Source: Saccharicrinis aurantiacus (GTDB lineage: Bacteria > Bacteroidota > Bacteroidia > Bacteroidales > Marinilabiliaceae). From it: a stretch of 64,000 bases of DNA. This document shows, piece after piece, positions 2,900-9,314 of the stretch (its first letter is position 1; every line of letters starts with the position of its first letter). The notes below the pieces were generated by a model. It did not search any database and had not been told where the DNA came from. It saw nothing but the letters and a program-made list of their open reading frames with translations. Location: positions 85,653-149,652 of the forward strand of contig NZ_LYBV02000009.1 in assembly GCF_001660705.2 (NCBI RefSeq), in the 5' to 3' direction. A program made the position numbers and the translations under genes.

Positions 2900-3063
2900 G
2901 AAGTTGTTTAAGGTTGTAGGGGAATTGCGAGAGTGACAATTTGATTATCAGTGGCAAAGCTCCATTTTTTATTGCATAGCCGTAGCTACGGAATAAAAAT
3001 TAGCTGAAGCCAATTAAATCAAGGTGTTACTCGCAGATTTTCGATACAACTTTAAACAACTTC
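2900..3063. repeat. Imperfect long inverted repeat (MITE-like) next to repeat copy 1
   Basis: The outer arms are GAAGTTGTTTAAGGTTGTA at 2900-2918 and its near-perfect complement at 3045-3063 (one mismatch). Complementarity continues inward with gaps (TGCGAG...; TTGATT...) to a central perfect palindrome, CCGTAGCTACGG, near 2980. The whole 164-bp piece could fold into one long hairpin. No open reading frame is present. This architecture suggests a small non-autonomous mobile element or a structured intergenic repeat. I did not find a second copy in the window, so mobility is inference. Confidence 0.55.
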
Positions 3064-3067
3064 AAAT

Positions 3068-3272
3068 AAAAAAAGGGATTTCAACCGTTGTTGAATCCCT
3101 TTCTTTTAACCTAAACCCTAATCTATGAAAAAAAACTTCTTATGTCTTACTTTGAGGTGAGTTTTAAAGAGGGAATGTTTTAGAAACATTCCCATCTTAT
3201 AACCTAAACCCTAACCTAATCTATGAAAAACTCTCTTGCTCTTCGGTATGGAATATTGCAAAGTGTGTGCCA
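3068..3272 (+). repeat. Two-hairpin leader-like direct repeat, copy 1 of 3
   Basis: This 205-bp unit recurs almost unchanged at 6264-6467 and 8375-8580. Order of parts: an A-run; hairpin 1 (AGGGATTTCAAC...GTTGAATCCCT) followed by TTTCTTTT; the box AACCTAAACCCTAATCTATG followed by eight A; a spacer; hairpin 2 with a perfect 10-bp stem (GGGAATGTTT, loop TAG, AAACATTCCC, 3171-3193); a second box, AACCTAAACCCTAACCTAA, then TCTATGAAAAACTC; and a tail ending GCAAAGTGTGTGCCA. Each ATG opens a tiny frame; in this copy MKKNFLCLTLR and a second of 21 residues starting MKNSLALR. It lies about 165 bases upstream of a TonB-like gene. Function unknown. Confidence 0.9.
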
Positions 3273-3349
3273 AAAAAGCATATGGTAATTTGTTTAACCT
3301 TTATTAATGAAACTAGTTTTTATTGAAGGGGAAAGTTTGAAATAGTTAA

Positions 3350-3381
3350 TTGAAAAAAACTTAGTTATCCTTGTATCTTTT
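3350..3381 (+). promoter_or_regulatory. Candidate promoter of the TonB-like/sigma operon
   Basis: A TTG at 3350-3352 is followed after 21 bases by TATCTTTT (3374-3381), one base away from the Bacteroidota -7 consensus TAnnTTTG. It sits about 55 bases upstream of the first ATG (3437) and downstream of repeat copy 1, so transcription of the operon would not need to read through the repeat's hairpins. Match is approximate. Confidence 0.4.
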
Positions 3382-3436
3382 ATGGCTCCTTTCAGTTATG
3401 AGAGTAATATAAAGTAGCTCACTTAAAAACTATTAA

Positions 3437-3919
3437 ATGAAAAATATAATAATTGTCCTTTTAATATTAAGTCCGTTTCTGCTTCATGCTCAGGATAAAT
3501 CAAAAACCCTCACTCTTAAAGTTAGGAAACCTATAGTAGAAGAGGATATTATAATTGAGTTTGATGTGCAACCATCTGATGATAGACCAGTTTTTTTTGT
3601 AGTTGAAGAAATGCCCAAATTTCCTGGTGGAGATGAGGCATTGCGTAAGTATATTTCAGATAATATAACAGTGCCCTCTGATATACCTGAAAGTGAAAGC
3701 ATGGGCACAGTGTATGTTCAATTTATAATAAGTAAATCAGGTAAAGTAGAGAGGGTTAGGCTAGGGAGAGGGGTGAACAATATATTAGATAAAATAGCTA
3801 TGGATATAGTTAGTAATATGCCCAAGTGGGAACCTGGTAGGCAAAGAGGAAAGGCTGTTGAGGTGAGCTATACTGTGCCAGTTAATTTCTTAGGAAACCA
3901 AACAAAGAGCACTGAGTAA
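3437..3919 (+). CDS. Exported TonB C-terminal-domain protein
   Basis: The 160-residue product has a signal peptide or membrane anchor (MKNIIIVLLILSPFLLHAQ) followed by a TonB_C-like domain. The family signature FPGGDEALRKYI is near residue 63, then GTVYVQFIISKSGKVERVR and KWEPGRQRGKAVEVSYTVPVNF. Canonical TonB couples inner-membrane energy to outer-membrane receptors and has a TM helix plus a proline-rich linker. Here the linker is very short and a cleavage site is likely, so this may be a free periplasmic TonB-like domain rather than a working energy transducer. It precedes an ECF-type sigma factor gene by 84 bases and may share its transcript. Start chosen for the signal peptide. Confidence 0.75.
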   Translation: MKNIIIVLLILSPFLLHAQDKSKTLTLKVRKPIVEEDIIIEFDVQPSDDRPVFFVVEEMPKFPGGDEALRKYISDNITVPSDIPESESMGTVYVQFIISKSGKVERVRLGRGVNNILDKIAMDIVSNMPKWEPGRQRGKAVEVSYTVPVNFLGNQTKSTE

Positions 3920-4003
3920 TTTGAAAATATACACAATTAACTTGTTGTGTAATTGTTTGTGACTAAATCCTTACCAGCTATTATCATTAAACCTAAATAG
4001 TAA

Positions 4004-4573
4004 ATGACCATATCACAAATTCATCATAAGTCGCCTAAAACAATTGACCAAGAGTATCAATTAGTAAAGGCAGCTCAAAACGATACCGCAAAGTTTGAGG
4101 TATTATACGATAGGTATTACGAGGCCATATTCCGATTTGTTTATCAGAGATTAGATTCAAAAGAGTTGGCTTTTGATATTACGCAGCAAGTTTTTGTAAA
4201 AGCACTGCAGGGCATCAAAAAATACAAATTCAAAGGAGTTCCTTTCTCGGCATGGTTATATCGTATTGCAAGTAACGAACTCAATACTTCTTTTAAACAA
4301 AACAAACTAATCAGAACCATAAATATCGAATCTGTTACCCCGCATACTCTAAAAGAAGATATTGATGAGGAGAGCTTGGATGATTTGTGGAATATATTGA
4401 TAGAACAAATTGGCACTTTGGCAGCAAGTGAAATTACATTAATAGAAATGCGCTATATGGAGAATAGACCATTTAAAGAGATTGCCGATATACTTGATAT
4501 TACCGAGAATAATGCCAAGGTTAAGGTTTATCGGATTTTAGATAAACTAAAAGCTAAATGTAAAACTCTTTAA
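4004..4573 (+). CDS. RNA polymerase sigma factor, sigma-70 family, ECF type
   Basis: The 189-residue protein has region 2 (about residues 25-95: FEVLYDRYYEAIFRFVYQRLDSKELAFDITQQVFVKAL, with the WLYRIASNEL segment following) and region 4 (about 135-185: LIEMRYMENRPFKEIADILDITENNAKVKVYRILDKLK), the helix-turn-helix that binds the -35 element. There is no region 1 or 3, as expected for an ECF sigma. The next gene starts 10 bases downstream and encodes a single-pass membrane protein, an arrangement typical of sigma/anti-sigma pairs. Target genes are unknown; the TonB-like gene just upstream is a candidate. Confidence 0.88.
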   Translation: MTISQIHHKSPKTIDQEYQLVKAAQNDTAKFEVLYDRYYEAIFRFVYQRLDSKELAFDITQQVFVKALQGIKKYKFKGVPFSAWLYRIASNELNTSFKQNKLIRTINIESVTPHTLKEDIDEESLDDLWNILIEQIGTLAASEITLIEMRYMENRPFKEIADILDITENNAKVKVYRILDKLKAKCKTL

Positions 4574-4583
4574 GCTGCCAATT

Positions 4584-6233
4584 ATGAATAAGTATAAAAT
4601 TAACATTGATAGAGATATTATTAGTTCTGAGAGTATTGCCCAAGAACGCAATTTTGCCGCAGTACAAACAGAGGCTCGTATAAAAGATCCGCTTTACACA
4701 AAAACTAAAATATTTTTAAATAGTGTGGCTATACTGATTACAGTAGCCGTTGTGGGTTATTTATTGTACAGTCCAACAAACCAAGATATTGATGATGTAA
4801 CATCATTTATTGTACCTCCTATAAATGATATCAACATTTCTTTTCAGGAGTTTCAGCTTGAGGCTTGTATAGCCGATACCATTATTAGTGAGCGAGGTAG
4901 TAGAGTAATAATCCCCGCTAATGCCTTTGCAGATACAACTAATCAAATAGCTAAGGGAGCGATAATATTTAAAGTGCGTGAGTTTCATAATCAGGCCGAT
5001 ATATTTTTATCAGGTATTCCAATGGGATACGATTCTTTAGCCAATAACTATACATTAGAATCAGCTGGTATGATTGAACTACGTGCATTTCAGAATGGAA
5101 AGGAATTGCAGCTAGTTCCCGAAAAGGAGCTTGAAGTTGAATTGGTATCCGACTATAGCGATAATGATTACAATGTTTATTATTTAGATGAGAATCTTGA
5201 AAACTGGCAGTATGTAGGTAAAGATTCTTTAATACTTCCCAATAAAACACTTCCTGTCGATGAACCTCTAGAGGTAGCAATAAATAACAAGGATATTTTA
5301 GAACTTCAAAGAAGATTAGATTCTATTATAACAAATAATCAACAGTTTAGATTAACAGAACCAATCAAACCACAAAAGGCTTTGGCCGATAAATGGAAAA
5401 TTGAATTAGATGTAATTGCCGAAGATTTCCCTGAACTATCTGTTTACGAAGGTACTAATTGGCAATTTGCCGATGATGCGCTAGTTCCGGATATTCAGGA
5501 TGCAGATATTACTTGGGATGATATTATTATTAGCAAAGCAGGAGGGAGCAATAATTATTTACTTACTGTAAAAAAAGGAAGTAAAGAAAAGCAATATACA
5601 GTAAATCCTGTCTATACAGGAATTGCGTATGCAGATGCAATCAACAATTACGAAAACAAGTTTAATACTTATAAAGCGGCTCGTGCAAGCAGAAGGCAAG
5701 AAGAAGCGAACCTGTTAGCCGCAATTGAGGCTGATAAAGAAAAGTGGCGCTTAAGTCAACAAAGAGCAATGAGCTTGCGCACAAATATAAATAACAATAA
5801 AGGAAAACTCGACCGTGATATTTTTAGGCGCTTCTCGGTAAGTACATTAGGAGTATGGAATTGTGATAGAATTATTAACACTAATAGGGTAAAAACTGTA
5901 AATGCTTTGTGTGCAGATAAAAATGGGGACGCAATGGTTTTTAAAAGCTTATATGTAATAAATAAGAATAGAAATACAGTACTGCAGTCTACTTCCCAAG
6001 TTAGTATTGATGATGTATTGTATTATAGAGTTATGCTTAATAAATTGGGTGGTGATATTATTATTGGTATTAACATTGAAGATAAAATAATAGTATTGTC
6101 TGAAAGGGAATTAAACTATGCAGTTAAAAGCGCTAAAGAGGAAGTTGTTTTCAACTTTAGTGTAATTGATAAAGAGGTTTCCTCAAAAATGGATTTTAAA
6201 AAGCTATATGAAAATAGTTTTAATGCGAATTAG
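4584..6233 (+). CDS. Single-pass membrane protein, possible anti-sigma factor
   Basis: The 549-residue product has a short polar N-terminus (about 1-46), one hydrophobic segment (FLNSVAILITVAVVGYLLY, about 45-63) and a large extracytoplasmic part. Near residue 110 is a motif shared by uncharacterised Bacteroidota exported proteins: IIPANAFAD, then REFHNQADIFLSGIPMGYDS and ESAGMIELRAFQNGKEL. A charged, possibly coiled stretch rich in R, E and K lies around residues 365-410. It starts 10 bases after the sigma factor, so a role as membrane-bound regulator of that sigma is plausible, but the N-terminus shows no anti-sigma (ASD/zinc) motif that I recognise. Family uncertain. Confidence 0.6.
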   Translation: MNKYKINIDRDIISSESIAQERNFAAVQTEARIKDPLYTKTKIFLNSVAILITVAVVGYLLYSPTNQDIDDVTSFIVPPINDINISFQEFQLEACIADTIISERGSRVIIPANAFADTTNQIAKGAIIFKVREFHNQADIFLSGIPMGYDSLANNYTLESAGMIELRAFQNGKELQLVPEKELEVELVSDYSDNDYNVYYLDENLENWQYVGKDSLILPNKTLPVDEPLEVAINNKDILELQRRLDSIITNNQQFRLTEPIKPQKALADKWKIELDVIAEDFPELSVYEGTNWQFADDALVPDIQDADITWDDIIISKAGGSNNYLLTVKKGSKEKQYTVNPVYTGIAYADAINNYENKFNTYKAARASRRQEEANLLAAIEADKEKWRLSQQRAMSLRTNINNNKGKLDRDIFRRFSVSTLGVWNCDRIINTNRVKTVNALCADKNGDAMVFKSLYVINKNRNTVLQSTSQVSIDDVLYYRVMLNKLGGDIIIGINIEDKIIVLSERELNYAVKSAKEEVVFNFSVIDKEVSSKMDFKKLYENSFNAN

Positions 6234-6263
6234 GAAATACTTTATAGCTTAGGAGTGAATCAT

Positions 6264-6467
6264 AAAAAAAGGGATTTCAACCGTTGTTGAATCCCTTTCT
6301 TTTAACCTAAACCCTAATCTATGAAAAAAAACATCTTATGTCTCATTTGAGGTGAGTTTTAAAGAGGGAATGTTTTAGAAACATTCCCATCTTATAACCT
6401 AAACCCTAACCTAATCTATGAAAAACTCTCTTGCTCTTCGGTGAGGAATATTGCAAAGTGTGTGCCA
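6264..6467 (+). repeat. Two-hairpin leader-like direct repeat, copy 2 of 3
   Basis: Same unit and orientation as 3068-3272, starting 30 bases after the stop codon of the membrane-protein gene. Both hairpins and both AACCTAAACCCTAA boxes are identical to copy 1; the few differences fall in the spacer and tail. The two mini-frames here read MKKNILCLI and MKNSLALR before stops. Hairpin 1 with its following T-rich stretch could also terminate the upstream operon. Confidence 0.9.
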
Positions 6468-6635
6468 AATTTTTCAATAATTGAAAAAATTTATCTTAAA
6501 CCAACTTTTTTTCTAAAAATTAATGTGGCGCATAATAAAGTATCAGTCAATTGTTAAAAACAGATCGTGTGTAATGCTTGCCTGTAGGTTAAAATAGTTA
6601 ATTCCGTTATTAGTTATATTGTGTACTTAGATTAA

Positions 6636-6643
6636 TATATTTG
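6636..6643 (+). promoter_or_regulatory. -7 promoter element upstream of the 6687 gene
   Basis: TATATTTG matches the Bacteroidota -7 consensus TAnnTTTG exactly and lies about 45 bases before the ATG at 6687. No well-spaced TTG -33 element is obvious. Confidence 0.5.
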
Positions 6644-6686
6644 CGCAAAATTATAGAAGCAATTTTAACTAACACATTAAACTACA

Positions 6687-8261
6687 ATGCGTAAATTACT
6701 ATTAATTGTATTTGTATTACTAACGCAATTACAACTTGAAGCAAAAAAAACAGAGAACCGACTTTTACTGAATACACCGAGCGATAGTCTTGTTTTTATG
6801 TTTTATATGAATGCCTCAGAAATACAATCCGACTCATTATATCAGGCCTTTAGTAAAGAGATTGGAGAAGAACAGCAAAAGCTGCTTGAGCAGTTTAGCG
6901 AATTAAATATCTATGCACAGATGTACGAGGCTCACATGGCTCTTACAGTAAACTTTAAAGCATCTAAGGAATTTGATTTAGAGTTCATGAAATCTAGCTT
7001 ATCCGATCTGGATTTATCAATAACAGGCATGCAAGGTAACTTTATCACACTTCAAGGAGATGGGGAAAACAAGCGATATGCTTATTTATATACAGGAAAT
7101 CAATATGCTACCTTAAAGATCTTCACACCATATTCTTATATCAGTCAAGATATAAGAACTCAAGTAACTGAACTCTATGGTTTACTAGATAAGCCTAACA
7201 TGGATTATGAAGATAGAAATGTTATTTATGATAAGATAGATTCATTAAAAGTGTTGGATGATGCATATGTTGAACCATTCTTCACCGCTTTGATTCAATC
7301 CGATAAAACGCGTTTATCCAATGGTGAAGATATACAATCGGTGAAGCGACCAATAAAGTTTAAACAAGAGATTCAAAATAATCCAATTGTTTCTTATGTG
7401 AAGAATGATGAAATATGGAGAATTACTTATTTCGGTGGAATAGCTTTGGCTGGTAAAGATATGTTTGGAAGTTTTTCATCAAATTATGATGATTTTAAAA
7501 GGGCAATGGCCATCTATAATATATTTGATGAAACATGGTATACTGCTAAGTCAACAAATGATGGGGTAGAGCTAGCACAAATTTCTGGCAATAAAAATCG
7601 TAAGCAAAATTTATATACAAATATTGATAGTAAGATGTTACAATATATTCCGTCTTCAGATTCAGCTAATCTGGCAACCTATAGTATAGATGCTTTAAAT
7701 CTGAGAGAGATTTTGTACGATTATTATGTAACTGATTATGACAAAGAATTAAAATTGGGCAAATTAGCAATGCTGGCATTAGATGATGACGTAGTTAAAA
7801 TGTTAAATAACTTTTTAATATCGGGAAATTTTGTAAAGACTAGTTATTACGGAAAAGAACTACATTTTAAGGCAGTGTTAAAAATGCCAAATCAGCAAAA
7901 AGGGAGGCGCCTATTAGATCTTTTATGTAAAGAATTTGAAATATTGCAAAAACTAGAGGAGGATACCTATGTTTTCGTAGAACAAAGTCTTACAGAAAAA
8001 CCTCTTTATTTAGTTATTGATAACGAATATTGGATTGCAGGAACTCATTCTGCAGATGAGCTAAAGCAAAAGAATAAGAATTATAAAACTAGTTTTCCTG
8101 ATTTGTTAAATAAAAAACTTTCAAGCTATATTTTGCTTAGGCAAGATATCCTAGGTGTTAAAGAGGGAATTGATAACGTGAAAATACAATTAGAGCTAGT
8201 GGATAGTAAAACAGTGAAAACAACTTATAAACTCAAATTTAGCGATCAATTAAGTAATTAA
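6687..8261 (+). CDS. Exported protein of unknown family, 524 aa
   Basis: A signal peptide (MRKLLLIVFVLLTQLQLEA) is followed by about 500 residues with no transmembrane segment and no motif I recognise. The mature protein is acidic/mixed in charge with many Tyr and Asp, and looks globular. There is no lipobox cysteine and no T9SS C-terminal signature, so it is probably periplasmic. The gene stands alone between repeat copies 2 and 3, with its own promoter element upstream. Base composition resembles its neighbours. I cannot assign a function. Confidence 0.7.
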   Translation: MRKLLLIVFVLLTQLQLEAKKTENRLLLNTPSDSLVFMFYMNASEIQSDSLYQAFSKEIGEEQQKLLEQFSELNIYAQMYEAHMALTVNFKASKEFDLEFMKSSLSDLDLSITGMQGNFITLQGDGENKRYAYLYTGNQYATLKIFTPYSYISQDIRTQVTELYGLLDKPNMDYEDRNVIYDKIDSLKVLDDAYVEPFFTALIQSDKTRLSNGEDIQSVKRPIKFKQEIQNNPIVSYVKNDEIWRITYFGGIALAGKDMFGSFSSNYDDFKRAMAIYNIFDETWYTAKSTNDGVELAQISGNKNRKQNLYTNIDSKMLQYIPSSDSANLATYSIDALNLREILYDYYVTDYDKELKLGKLAMLALDDDVVKMLNNFLISGNFVKTSYYGKELHFKAVLKMPNQQKGRRLLDLLCKEFEILQKLEEDTYVFVEQSLTEKPLYLVIDNEYWIAGTHSADELKQKNKNYKTSFPDLLNKKLSSYILLRQDILGVKEGIDNVKIQLELVDSKTVKTTYKLKFSDQLSN

Positions 8262-8374
8262 CCATCTTGGTTGTAATCAAAATTAATTATTTCTCAGAAG
8301 ACTTATTTTTATACTCAGGTATGGATGTAAGTCTTCTTTGTTTTAGATTAAAATAGAATCACATTTTTAAGCAT

Positions 8375-8580
8375 AAAAAAAGGGATTTCAACCGTTGTTG
8401 AATCCCTTTCTTTTAACCTAAACCCTAATCTATGAAAAAAAACTTCTTATATCTTATTTGAGGTGAGCTTTTAAAAGAGGGAATGTTTTAGAAACATTCC
8501 CATCTTATAACCTAAACCCTAACCTAATCTATGAAAAACTCTCTTGCTCTTCGATGAGGAATATTGCAAAGTGTATGCCA
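8375..8580 (+). repeat. Two-hairpin leader-like direct repeat, copy 3 of 3
   Basis: Third copy of the unit at 3068-3272 and 6264-6467, again on the plus strand, about 110 bases after the preceding stop codon and reading toward the 3' end of the minus-strand ung gene. Hairpin 2 and both boxes are unchanged; the spacer has small indels (GAGCTTTTAAAAGAGGG). Mini-frames: MKKNFLYLI and MKNSLALR. Confidence 0.9.
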
Positions 8581-8615
8581 AGAATATTATTATATATTAG
8601 CTTAACTTTTATTAA

Positions 8616-9314
8616 CTAAAACAAAGTTTTTTGTACTTGGGGTAAATCCCAGATAATAGGCGCGTAACCTTTACTTTGCAAGTAATTATTAGTTTTGCTA
8701 AAGTGTTTATTACCAAAAAAACCCCGATGCGCTGAGAGAGGAGAAGGATGAGGTGATTCTAAAATAGAATGCTTATTGGTATCGATAAGACTTACTTTTT
8801 TACGCGCATATGCACCCCAGAGTATAAAAACAATGTTTTCTTTTTCCTTAGCAAGCTTTTCTATTACTGCATCAGTAAATGTTTCCCAGCCTTGTTTTTG
8901 GTGCGAACCCGCTTTGTGGGCCTCTACCGTTAAAGTAGCGTTGAGTAAAAGTACCCCTTGTTTGGCCCACTGCTCAAGGTTTCCATTTTCAGGCATTCTA
9001 AAATCTACCTCTTCATCGCTATCTAATTCTTTAAAGATATTTCGCAACGATGGCGGGAATTTAATACCATTATTCACCGAAAAGCAAAGACCGTGTGCTT
9101 GGTTTACATCATGGTAAGGGTCTTGGCCTAAAATGACCACTTTGGTTTTATCAAGCGGACAAAGATTAAATGCTTCGAATATTAATTCGCGTGGGGGGAA
9201 TATCTCTGTTGTTTGATAAGCATCATTCACAAATGAATTTAATTGTTTAAAATAATCGGTTTCAAGTTCACTTTGTAATAGCTTCTTCCAGCCTGATTCT
9301 ATATTAATATCCAT
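8616..9314 (-). CDS. ung: Uracil-DNA glycosylase, family 1
   Basis: This enzyme removes uracil from DNA in base-excision repair. The 232-residue product has the family-1 water-activating motif GQDPYHD (D65 catalytic, near residues 63-69), the LLLNATLTV segment with its uracil-contacting Asn, and the DNA-intercalation loop HPSPLSAHRGFFG near residue 190. Length is normal. It is transcribed alone; a perfect -7 element lies just upstream. Cytoplasmic. Confidence 0.96.
   Translation of the reverse strand: MDINIESGWKKLLQSELETDYFKQLNSFVNDAYQTTEIFPPRELIFEAFNLCPLDKTKVVILGQDPYHDVNQAHGLCFSVNNGIKFPPSLRNIFKELDSDEEVDFRMPENGNLEQWAKQGVLLLNATLTVEAHKAGSHQKQGWETFTDAVIEKLAKEKENIVFILWGAYARKKVSLIDTNKHSILESPHPSPLSAHRGFFGNKHFSKTNNYLQSKGYAPIIWDLPQVQKTLF

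Follow-up and report, generated by a model that had tools for sequence, protein, structure and literature searches.

A multi-copy repeat of Saccharicrinis aurantiacus as a predicted small RNA gene with a sigma-54 type promoter and two FopS-like seeds

The window analysed here is a 64-kb stretch (64,000 nucleotides) of the genome of Saccharicrinis aurantiacus (assembly GCF_001660705.2, contig NZ_LYBV02000009.1, positions 85,653 to 149,652), and it contains three copies of a repeat of about 205 nt, at 3068–3272, 6264–6467 and 8375–8580, all in the same orientation. We consider it probable that this repeat is the gene of a small regulatory RNA (sRNA) on the minus strand, which would be transcribed from a predicted sigma-54 promoter and would carry two seeds resembling that of the Bacteroides sRNA FopS; these are predicted to block start codons, with the mRNAs of SusC importers likely among the targets. 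The minus strand is indicated because this is where the orientation of both the sigma-54 type promoter and the terminator places the RNA. A preliminary description of the same DNA had reported three near-identical copies, each with a pair of AACCTAAACCCTAA boxes and two dissimilar hairpins, and it was borne out on both points: aligned to copy 2, which served as the reference, the other two copies are 98% and 96% identical, and the hairpins and boxes are present in all three. In ungapped repeat finding the right part of the element gave 98% and 90% identity and the left part 83% and 94%, the values on the left being lower because of small indels. Repeat finding detected no repeat of at least 40 nt common to the window copies outside the element, and the genes adjoining the three copies differ from one another.

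Read on the minus strand, the predicted transcript of ~179 nt consists of box A (UUUUUCAUAGAUUAGGUUAGGGUUUAGGUU in copy 1), an internal hairpin, a spacer, box B (UUUUUUUUCAUAGAUUAGGGUUUAGGUU in copy 1) and an intrinsic terminator. With +1 placed 12 nt past the GC of the -12 promoter element, the predicted sRNAs span 3068–3246 (~179 nt), 6264–6441 (~178 nt) and 8375–8554 (~180 nt), and they match a covariance model of the element with E-values of 3.4e-32 (copy 1, at G000:C69:88717-88908:-), 1.5e-32 and 3.6e-33, respectively, all three copies having been used in that model. Seed box A lies at 3201–3230, 6396–6425 and 8509–8538, and seed box B at 3108–3135, 6304–6331 and 8415–8442, as supported by the alignment and, in copy 3, also by matches to the FopS model at 8541–8469 (box A, 26.9 bits) and 8443–8372 (box B, 31.1 bits). 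The internal hairpin, which is the first of the covarying helices, is found at 3171–3193, 6366–6388 and 8479–8501. On the evidence of fold, covariation and U-run, the intrinsic terminator, a hairpin followed by U7, occupies 3068–3106, 6264–6302 and 8375–8413. Folding of the copy 3 RNA has a z-score of -4.68 versus shuffles. Since an imperfect U-run stands directly 3' of the internal hairpin, a shorter, one-headed RNA ending there is also possible.

Conservation was assessed on an alignment of 23 two-box copies, whose loci were found by a regular expression, apart from L005, which was included manually. The identical duplicates L031, L034 and L036 were left out, as were L149, which lies near a contig end and in which no box B was found, and further covariance-model matches (e.g. 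G004:C33:109527, G008:C376:12987, G007:C311:353198 and the weak matches in the family). The terminator U-run at the left end of the element is present in 23/23 copies and the boxes are near invariant, box A being shortened in one host copy (C1), while the stems vary in sequence. In this alignment 93.5% of the cells are paired, compared with at most 59.9% for slid versions of the structure, and 14 of the 19 pairs have changed on both sides. Cells with two-sided changes number 78 versus 29.0 in shuffles, a count that none of 500 shuffles reached. Both hairpins therefore covary, which answers the check for compensatory changes that the preliminary description had proposed. Its statement that boxes and hairpins stay constant while the spacers drift is accurate for the three window copies but not for the relatives, in which the stems change with compensation and the boxes alone are fixed.

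Searched with copy 2, the 5.88-Mb host genome (G000) yielded 13 matches, 11 of which are full elements spread over nine contigs; the window copies matched with E-values of 1e-94 to 1e-107, far above chance. All 11 are intergenic, none overlapping an open reading frame (ORF) of at least 60 aa, and their neighbours vary. The bracketing of TonB- and sigma-like genes by the window copies, which the preliminary description had pointed out, is incidental, as the other eight host copies have other neighbours. The remaining two matches (C15:125234 and C67:348612) comprise the terminator end alone, a nearly identical hairpin behind unrelated sequence, and may be either remnants or a common terminator. 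With the same query, a match was found in 19 of 41 genomes (host counted), including 9/9 of the host's genus-level group, the Labilibacter group (hereafter the genus group). Among its members are Labilibacter marinus Y11 (G004), L. sediminis CG51 (G007) and Plebeiobacterium marinum D04 (G002); Labilibacter is placed in the Marinilabiliaceae, Bacteroidota.

An element dispersed in many copies, with three of them in 5.5 kb, a copy number that varies among species and one copy (L022) at 430 nt from a gene that by eye resembles an integrase gene, could also be a mobile repeat, similar to a miniature inverted-repeat transposable element (MITE) or a repetitive extragenic palindrome (REP), that spreads passively and carries a promoter and a terminator by chance. 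We consider this very unlikely, as both stems show compensatory changes, the promoter and boxes are kept in 23/23 aligned copies and the host copies are intergenic without exception (11/11). In none of the three window copies are the element ends connected by an inverted repeat of at least 10 nt (no search was made for target-site duplications or empty sites), an 11-nt inverted pair flanks copy 1 alone, the neighbours of the copies are unrelated, and there was no match in phage, plasmid or viral-contig collections at the sensitivity used. Of the interpretations put forward in the preliminary description, the structured RNA family is thus the one that stands, on covariation, 11 host copies and relatives across the genus group; the mobile repeat does not, and neither does the regulatory leader discussed below.

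At its right end each repeat carries, on the minus strand, TTGGCAC(T)-N5-TTTGC, located at 3258–3273 and 6453–6468 (TTGGCACACACTTTGC in both) and at 8566–8581 (TTGGCATACACTTTGC), which we take to be a sigma-54 -24/-12 element. The consensus of sigma-54 promoters has GG at -24 and GC at -12, with a 10-nt gap. GGCAY-N5-TTG lies upstream in 23/23 aligned two-box copies (nine genomes), the C of the -12 GC being present in 12/23. Within the window TGGCAYN5TTG has three matches, each at a repeat; because 10/100 shuffles also give three, the evidence here is their position and not their count. In 1.01 Mb of host DNA, a sample chosen to contain all 11 repeats, the stricter pattern T[TA]GGCA[CT]N5TTG[CT] occurs at 12 sites. 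A box is found downstream at eight of them, and the other four have no box and lie inside open frames of at least 130 codons. When contexts of at least 100 nt were scored against TTGGCACN5TTGCA, a score of at least 9/12 was reached in 33/67 distinct first-box contexts, compared with 1/25 second boxes and 2.7% of 67-mers drawn at random from these loci. From such sites to the box the distance is 43–48 nt in the genus group (40 in one case) and 34–36 nt in the single-box RNAs found in other genera. The host has rpoN (PF04552, E 2.9e-53), and for the domain of enhancer-binding activators there are 14 PF00158 matches, seven of them strong (>170 bits).

Further upstream, a 10-bp direct repeat, GTTAA-N5-GTTAA, is found with at least 8/10 letters in 18/23 aligned copies. 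In 16 of these 18 it is separated from the -24 element by 20 or 21 nt, and in the other two (G002b and G008a) by 31–32 nt, about one helical turn more. In the window it lies on the minus strand at 3294–3308 in copy 1 (9/10 letters) and at 8602–8616 in copy 3 (10/10 letters), in both cases with 20 nt between it and the downstream -24 element. Alone, GTTAA-N5-GTTAA is not rarer in the window than expected by chance. The composite of GTTAA-N5-GTTAA, 15–32 nt and TGGCAYN5TTG was scanned for in nine genomes, six of them from the genus group, and gave seven matches in four of the nine, whereas the reversed pattern gave none; all seven stand at these sRNA elements or just before a related covariance-model match.

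On the plus strand both boxes resemble a gene start (AACCTAAACCCTAATCTATGAAAAA), and most host frames open with similar peptides (MKKNFLCL..., MKNSLALR...). This would suit a plus-strand cis element made up of a terminator and a leader with start-codon boxes (ATGAAAAA), perhaps acting via short peptides on the downstream gene. Such a leader or attenuator, which the preliminary description had offered as a regulatory leader, is in our judgement extremely improbable and was dropped. The frames after the ATGs end within 8 to 58 codons and diverge past the first residues, the next plus-strand neighbour is convergent in 5/11 host copies, including window copy 3, and the sigma-54 type element and U-run place the RNA on the minus strand. 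The recurring plus-strand peptides (3108–3135, 3201–3230 and in other host copies) are probably a by-product of an anti-start seed.

The resemblance of the predicted minus-strand sRNA to FopS comes from Rfam. At the gathering threshold no Rfam model matched anywhere in the window. In E-value mode RF04319 (BTncRNA_FopS) matched both halves of copy 3 on the minus strand, at the scores given above and with model positions 1–71 of 71 aligned in both, and its bit score was the highest among Rfam models for either half. Over the host genome at E<=0.1 the FopS model gave 14 matches, of which 11 are the full set of repeats (28.2–31.1 bits, E 0.025–0.088), one is the box A half of a repeat and two lie elsewhere. 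The same model gave five matches over its cut-off (60.5–78 bits) in a genome of the same order outside the family (G026), and among 14 named control genomes it matched in Bacteroides ihuae alone. Each copy of the repeat thus resembles a tandem of two FopS-like units, and we use the label FopS-like rather than FopS member because the gathering score is not reached.

FopS RNAs are described in PMC11697453 as conserved in the Bacteroidaceae, with 14 paralogs in Bacteroides thetaiotaomicron, housekeeping (sigma-ABfr) promoters, one seed plus a terminator, and the RNA recognition motif (RRM) protein RbpB as partner. According to the same source, they pair with susC mRNAs close to the start codon and block translation in vitro, which RbpB antagonises, and their expression responds to bile salts. 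Both FopS and each half of the host RNA have the seed UUUUUCAU..AUUAG..AGGUUA, an anti-start-codon stretch within it, and an intrinsic terminator directly after it; both also have many paralogs per genome (14 in B. thetaiotaomicron, 11 full copies in the host), and SusC-type mRNAs, known targets of FopS, are the better-pairing class for the host RNA. The host RNA differs in having two seed-hairpin units instead of one, a sigma-54 type promoter (23/23 copies) instead of a sigma-ABfr promoter, and no RRM protein found in its genus group, and in lying outside the Bacteroidaceae with a model score under the gathering score. GibS (RF04182) is similar in that, as described in PMC7366714, it is a Bacteroides sRNA with two pairing regions, an R1 seed in common with FopS and a non-canonical promoter (PM2), but its seeds (R1 and R2) are unlike each other. 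The GibS model matched the repeat with 24.5 bits, under its gathering score of 115.

The Qrr sRNAs of Vibrio are trans-acting and sigma-54 dependent, exist in several copies and require Hfq. Their multiple copies and sigma-54 dependence recall the copy number and predicted switch of the host RNA, a likeness by description and not by sequence comparison, while the Hfq that they need was found in none of the 41 genomes here. Qrr is among the paralogous sRNAs named in PMC11697453. Among the top-listed papers in openly licensed PMC literature on FopS and GibS, sigma-54 and Bacteroidota sRNAs, which makes for a limited negative, there was no sigma-54-driven or two-unit form of the FopS type. The FopS-type seed plus terminator is known already, and what appears to be new is a FopS-like sRNA family that is double-headed and has a sigma-54 type promoter.

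The covariance model of the 23 copies, at E<=0.01, matched in 38/81 genomes. Full-length matches (E 4e-16 or better) were found in 9/9 genus-group genomes, with 11 in the host at E 2e-24 to 2e-35, the model having been built from these copies. Weaker matches (E 2.5e-8 or worse) occur in 29/40 other genomes of the family, and 32 genomes representing other families of the order gave no match at the same cut-off with stricter large-search filters. Among the weak-match loci that were read (L161–L181) are RNAs with one box and a clear sigma-54 type promoter, and two-box arrangements lacking a sigma-54 promoter were seen by eye in G013, G044 and G053. The sigma-54 type switch would thus extend more widely than the genus, the strong two-box form that carries it having been seen in the genus group only.

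Several kinds of single-box relative were also observed. FopS-like RNAs with one box and near-consensus sigma-54 type promoters occur in other genera of the family (L163, L164, L166–L170, L173 and L181), and a similar arrangement was noted by eye in another family of the order (L144). A second single-box FopS-like RNA, L132 (G000:C33:32529-32611:+), has relatives at L134, L135, L136, L138 and L140; RNAs of this type were found in G000, G003, G004, G006 and G009 and have, by eye, a classical Bacteroidetes-type promoter (TAcaTTTG) and not a sigma-54 element. In five species of the group a further single-box relative with no obvious sigma-54 element lies directly upstream of a gene that by eye is tsaB-like (L031 5449, L034 14178, L035 14449, L036 18112 and L037 16933); a scan of host loci did not detect the tsaB motif.

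Target scans covered 641 ORF starts (ORFs of at least 120 codons, first ATG) in the 1.01 Mb of host DNA. In the interval from -40 to +21 around these starts, the boxes formed 26 duplexes that reach -20 kcal/mol, versus 9.2 for dinucleotide-shuffled boxes, and 60 versus 27.8 at -18 kcal/mol; none of 60 shuffles reached the real count at either threshold. When six other intervals were scored at -20 kcal/mol, the real count was reached by between 11 and 60 of the 60 shuffles. The SusC comparison used 30 of the 39 SusC genes above cut-off in the host, and their starts paired better with the boxes than 635 others, with an area under the curve (AUC) of 0.715 (p 3e-5). Full shuffles gave an AUC of 0.523 (0/80 reach the real value) and shuffles that kept the anti-AUG part gave 0.661 (2/80 reach). 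The top candidate, the SusC gene at G000:C15:121335-124340, has the leader AACCTAAACACTAAAACTAATCAAAATGAA and pairs at -24.0 kcal/mol. Outside the repeats there are 12 one-mismatch 14-mer sites, and eight of these were read, partly by eye: one falls on a SusC start (C15:124499) and another on codons 4–8 of a secreted-looking protein, four are within other long frames and two are away from starts.

A number of results weigh against an sRNA that blocks start codons in the manner of FopS. The general start-codon pairing signal comes mostly from the anti-AUG part, UUUUUCAU, because a box without UUUUUCAUA gives no excess in the leader interval (13 starts versus 11.1; 37/120 shuffles reach) and because, with the anti-AUG kept and the rest shuffled, the 635 non-SusC starts give 25 versus 22.7 at -20 kcal/mol (27/80 reach). 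In the interval from -200 to -139 the top-20 mean was stronger than in all 60 shuffles. The 16-nt box core, CCTAATCTATGAAAAA, is matched with at most one mismatch at 21 sites, all inside repeats and none elsewhere, and there is no surplus of box-like 14-mers (121 sites, including 22 within repeats, versus 111 reversed). Predicted folding leaves the boxes only partly unpaired (means 0.30–0.60, compared with 0.25–0.38 for the rest of the RNA). With 31.1 and 26.9 bits, the two halves fall short of the FopS gathering score (56). At the box B end, the model of BTnc231, a different Bacteroides sRNA, gives an E-value a little lower than that of FopS (0.0037 versus 0.007), at 25.1 bits versus its gathering score of 80.4. 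Five of the 23 copies are without a good GTTAA site, including window copy 2 (7/10 letters), and the short, fixed spacing from this site to the promoter is unusual for an ordinary sigma-54 enhancer. Finally, RRM_1 (PF00076), the type of partner that modulates FopS, was found in 0/9 genus-group genomes; it is present in 13/16 other genomes of the family. Hfq (PF17209) was found in 0/41 genomes, in a search whose control was positive in 5/14 named genomes, E. coli included.

The RNA might instead be a protein-binding decoy, for which CsrB-like RNAs provide the model, its tandem UUAGG(G) boxes titrating an RNA-binding protein and mRNA pairing being secondary. The boxes are near invariant over their full length, including GGUUAGGGUUUAGGUU, a part that by itself has no excess complementarity to mRNA leaders, and sequence-specific binding of FopS and GibS RNAs by RbpB is described in PMC11697453. 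However, the lack of an RRM protein in 9/9 genus-group genomes and of Hfq in 41/41 speaks against a decoy, as do the FopS anti-AUG that the seed retains and complementarity counts that peak at start codons only, and we regard it as unlikely.

We return to the start-codon-blocking sRNA. In the mechanism that we envisage, sigma-54 and an activator, perhaps bound at GTTAA-N5-GTTAA, would turn the sRNA on under stress, boxes A and B would pair with the start-codon regions of mRNAs and block their translation, and the many gene copies would give a fast and strong dose of sRNA. In enterobacteria, the stress sigma factor sigma-E makes the Hfq-dependent sRNAs MicA and RybB, which block outer-membrane protein synthesis. 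The predicted sRNA may be a Bacteroidota counterpart of this arm, in which a stress sigma factor drives sRNAs that halt the synthesis of outer-membrane proteins. The analogy is one of how the systems would work, with homology not claimed: the sigma factor is a different one, and MicA and RybB depend on Hfq. The sigma-54 regulon of Flavobacterium psychrophilum is described as including protein quality control and envelope stress functions (PMC9723704). Bacteroidota sigma-54 is also tied to chaperones and proteases in PMC12316311, a paper whose main text does not contain the terms small RNA, sRNA or noncoding.

In its fullest form, our proposal is of a sigma-54-controlled, double-headed, multi-copy sRNA family of the Marinilabiliaceae that silences outer-membrane importers by masking their start codons without a known RNA chaperone, as the Bacteroidota answer to sigma-E/MicA/RybB, and in which the fusion of two seed-terminator units went with RRM loss in the same genus. 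This we put forward tentatively, and think it somewhat less probable than an even chance. That the RRM protein is lacking in the same genus that has the two-unit sigma-54 form amounts to one event and is no proof of a link. If the proposal is true, start-codon-blocking seeds would extend past a gut genus, wired to sigma-54 and doubled in one transcript, and would act without Hfq or RRM proteins. The little-studied sigma-54 of the Bacteroidota would gain a direct target set, with 11 like promoters in one genome, and the relatives L. marinus and L. sediminis would be settings for studying dose, two-seed action and chaperone independence.

The neighbourhood of the repeats in the window has features of its own. 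Directly left of copy 1 there is an imperfect 47-nt inverted repeat (2900–2946 and 3017–3063), 77% complementary, with arms 70 nt apart. Beside genes for a TonB_C protein and a sigma-70-type factor, the plus-strand ORFs at 4584–6233 (549 aa) and 6687–8261 (524 aa) have no Pfam match. At 288–2543 the plus strand encodes an iron-only hydrogenase large subunit and a thioredoxin-like [2Fe-2S] subunit.

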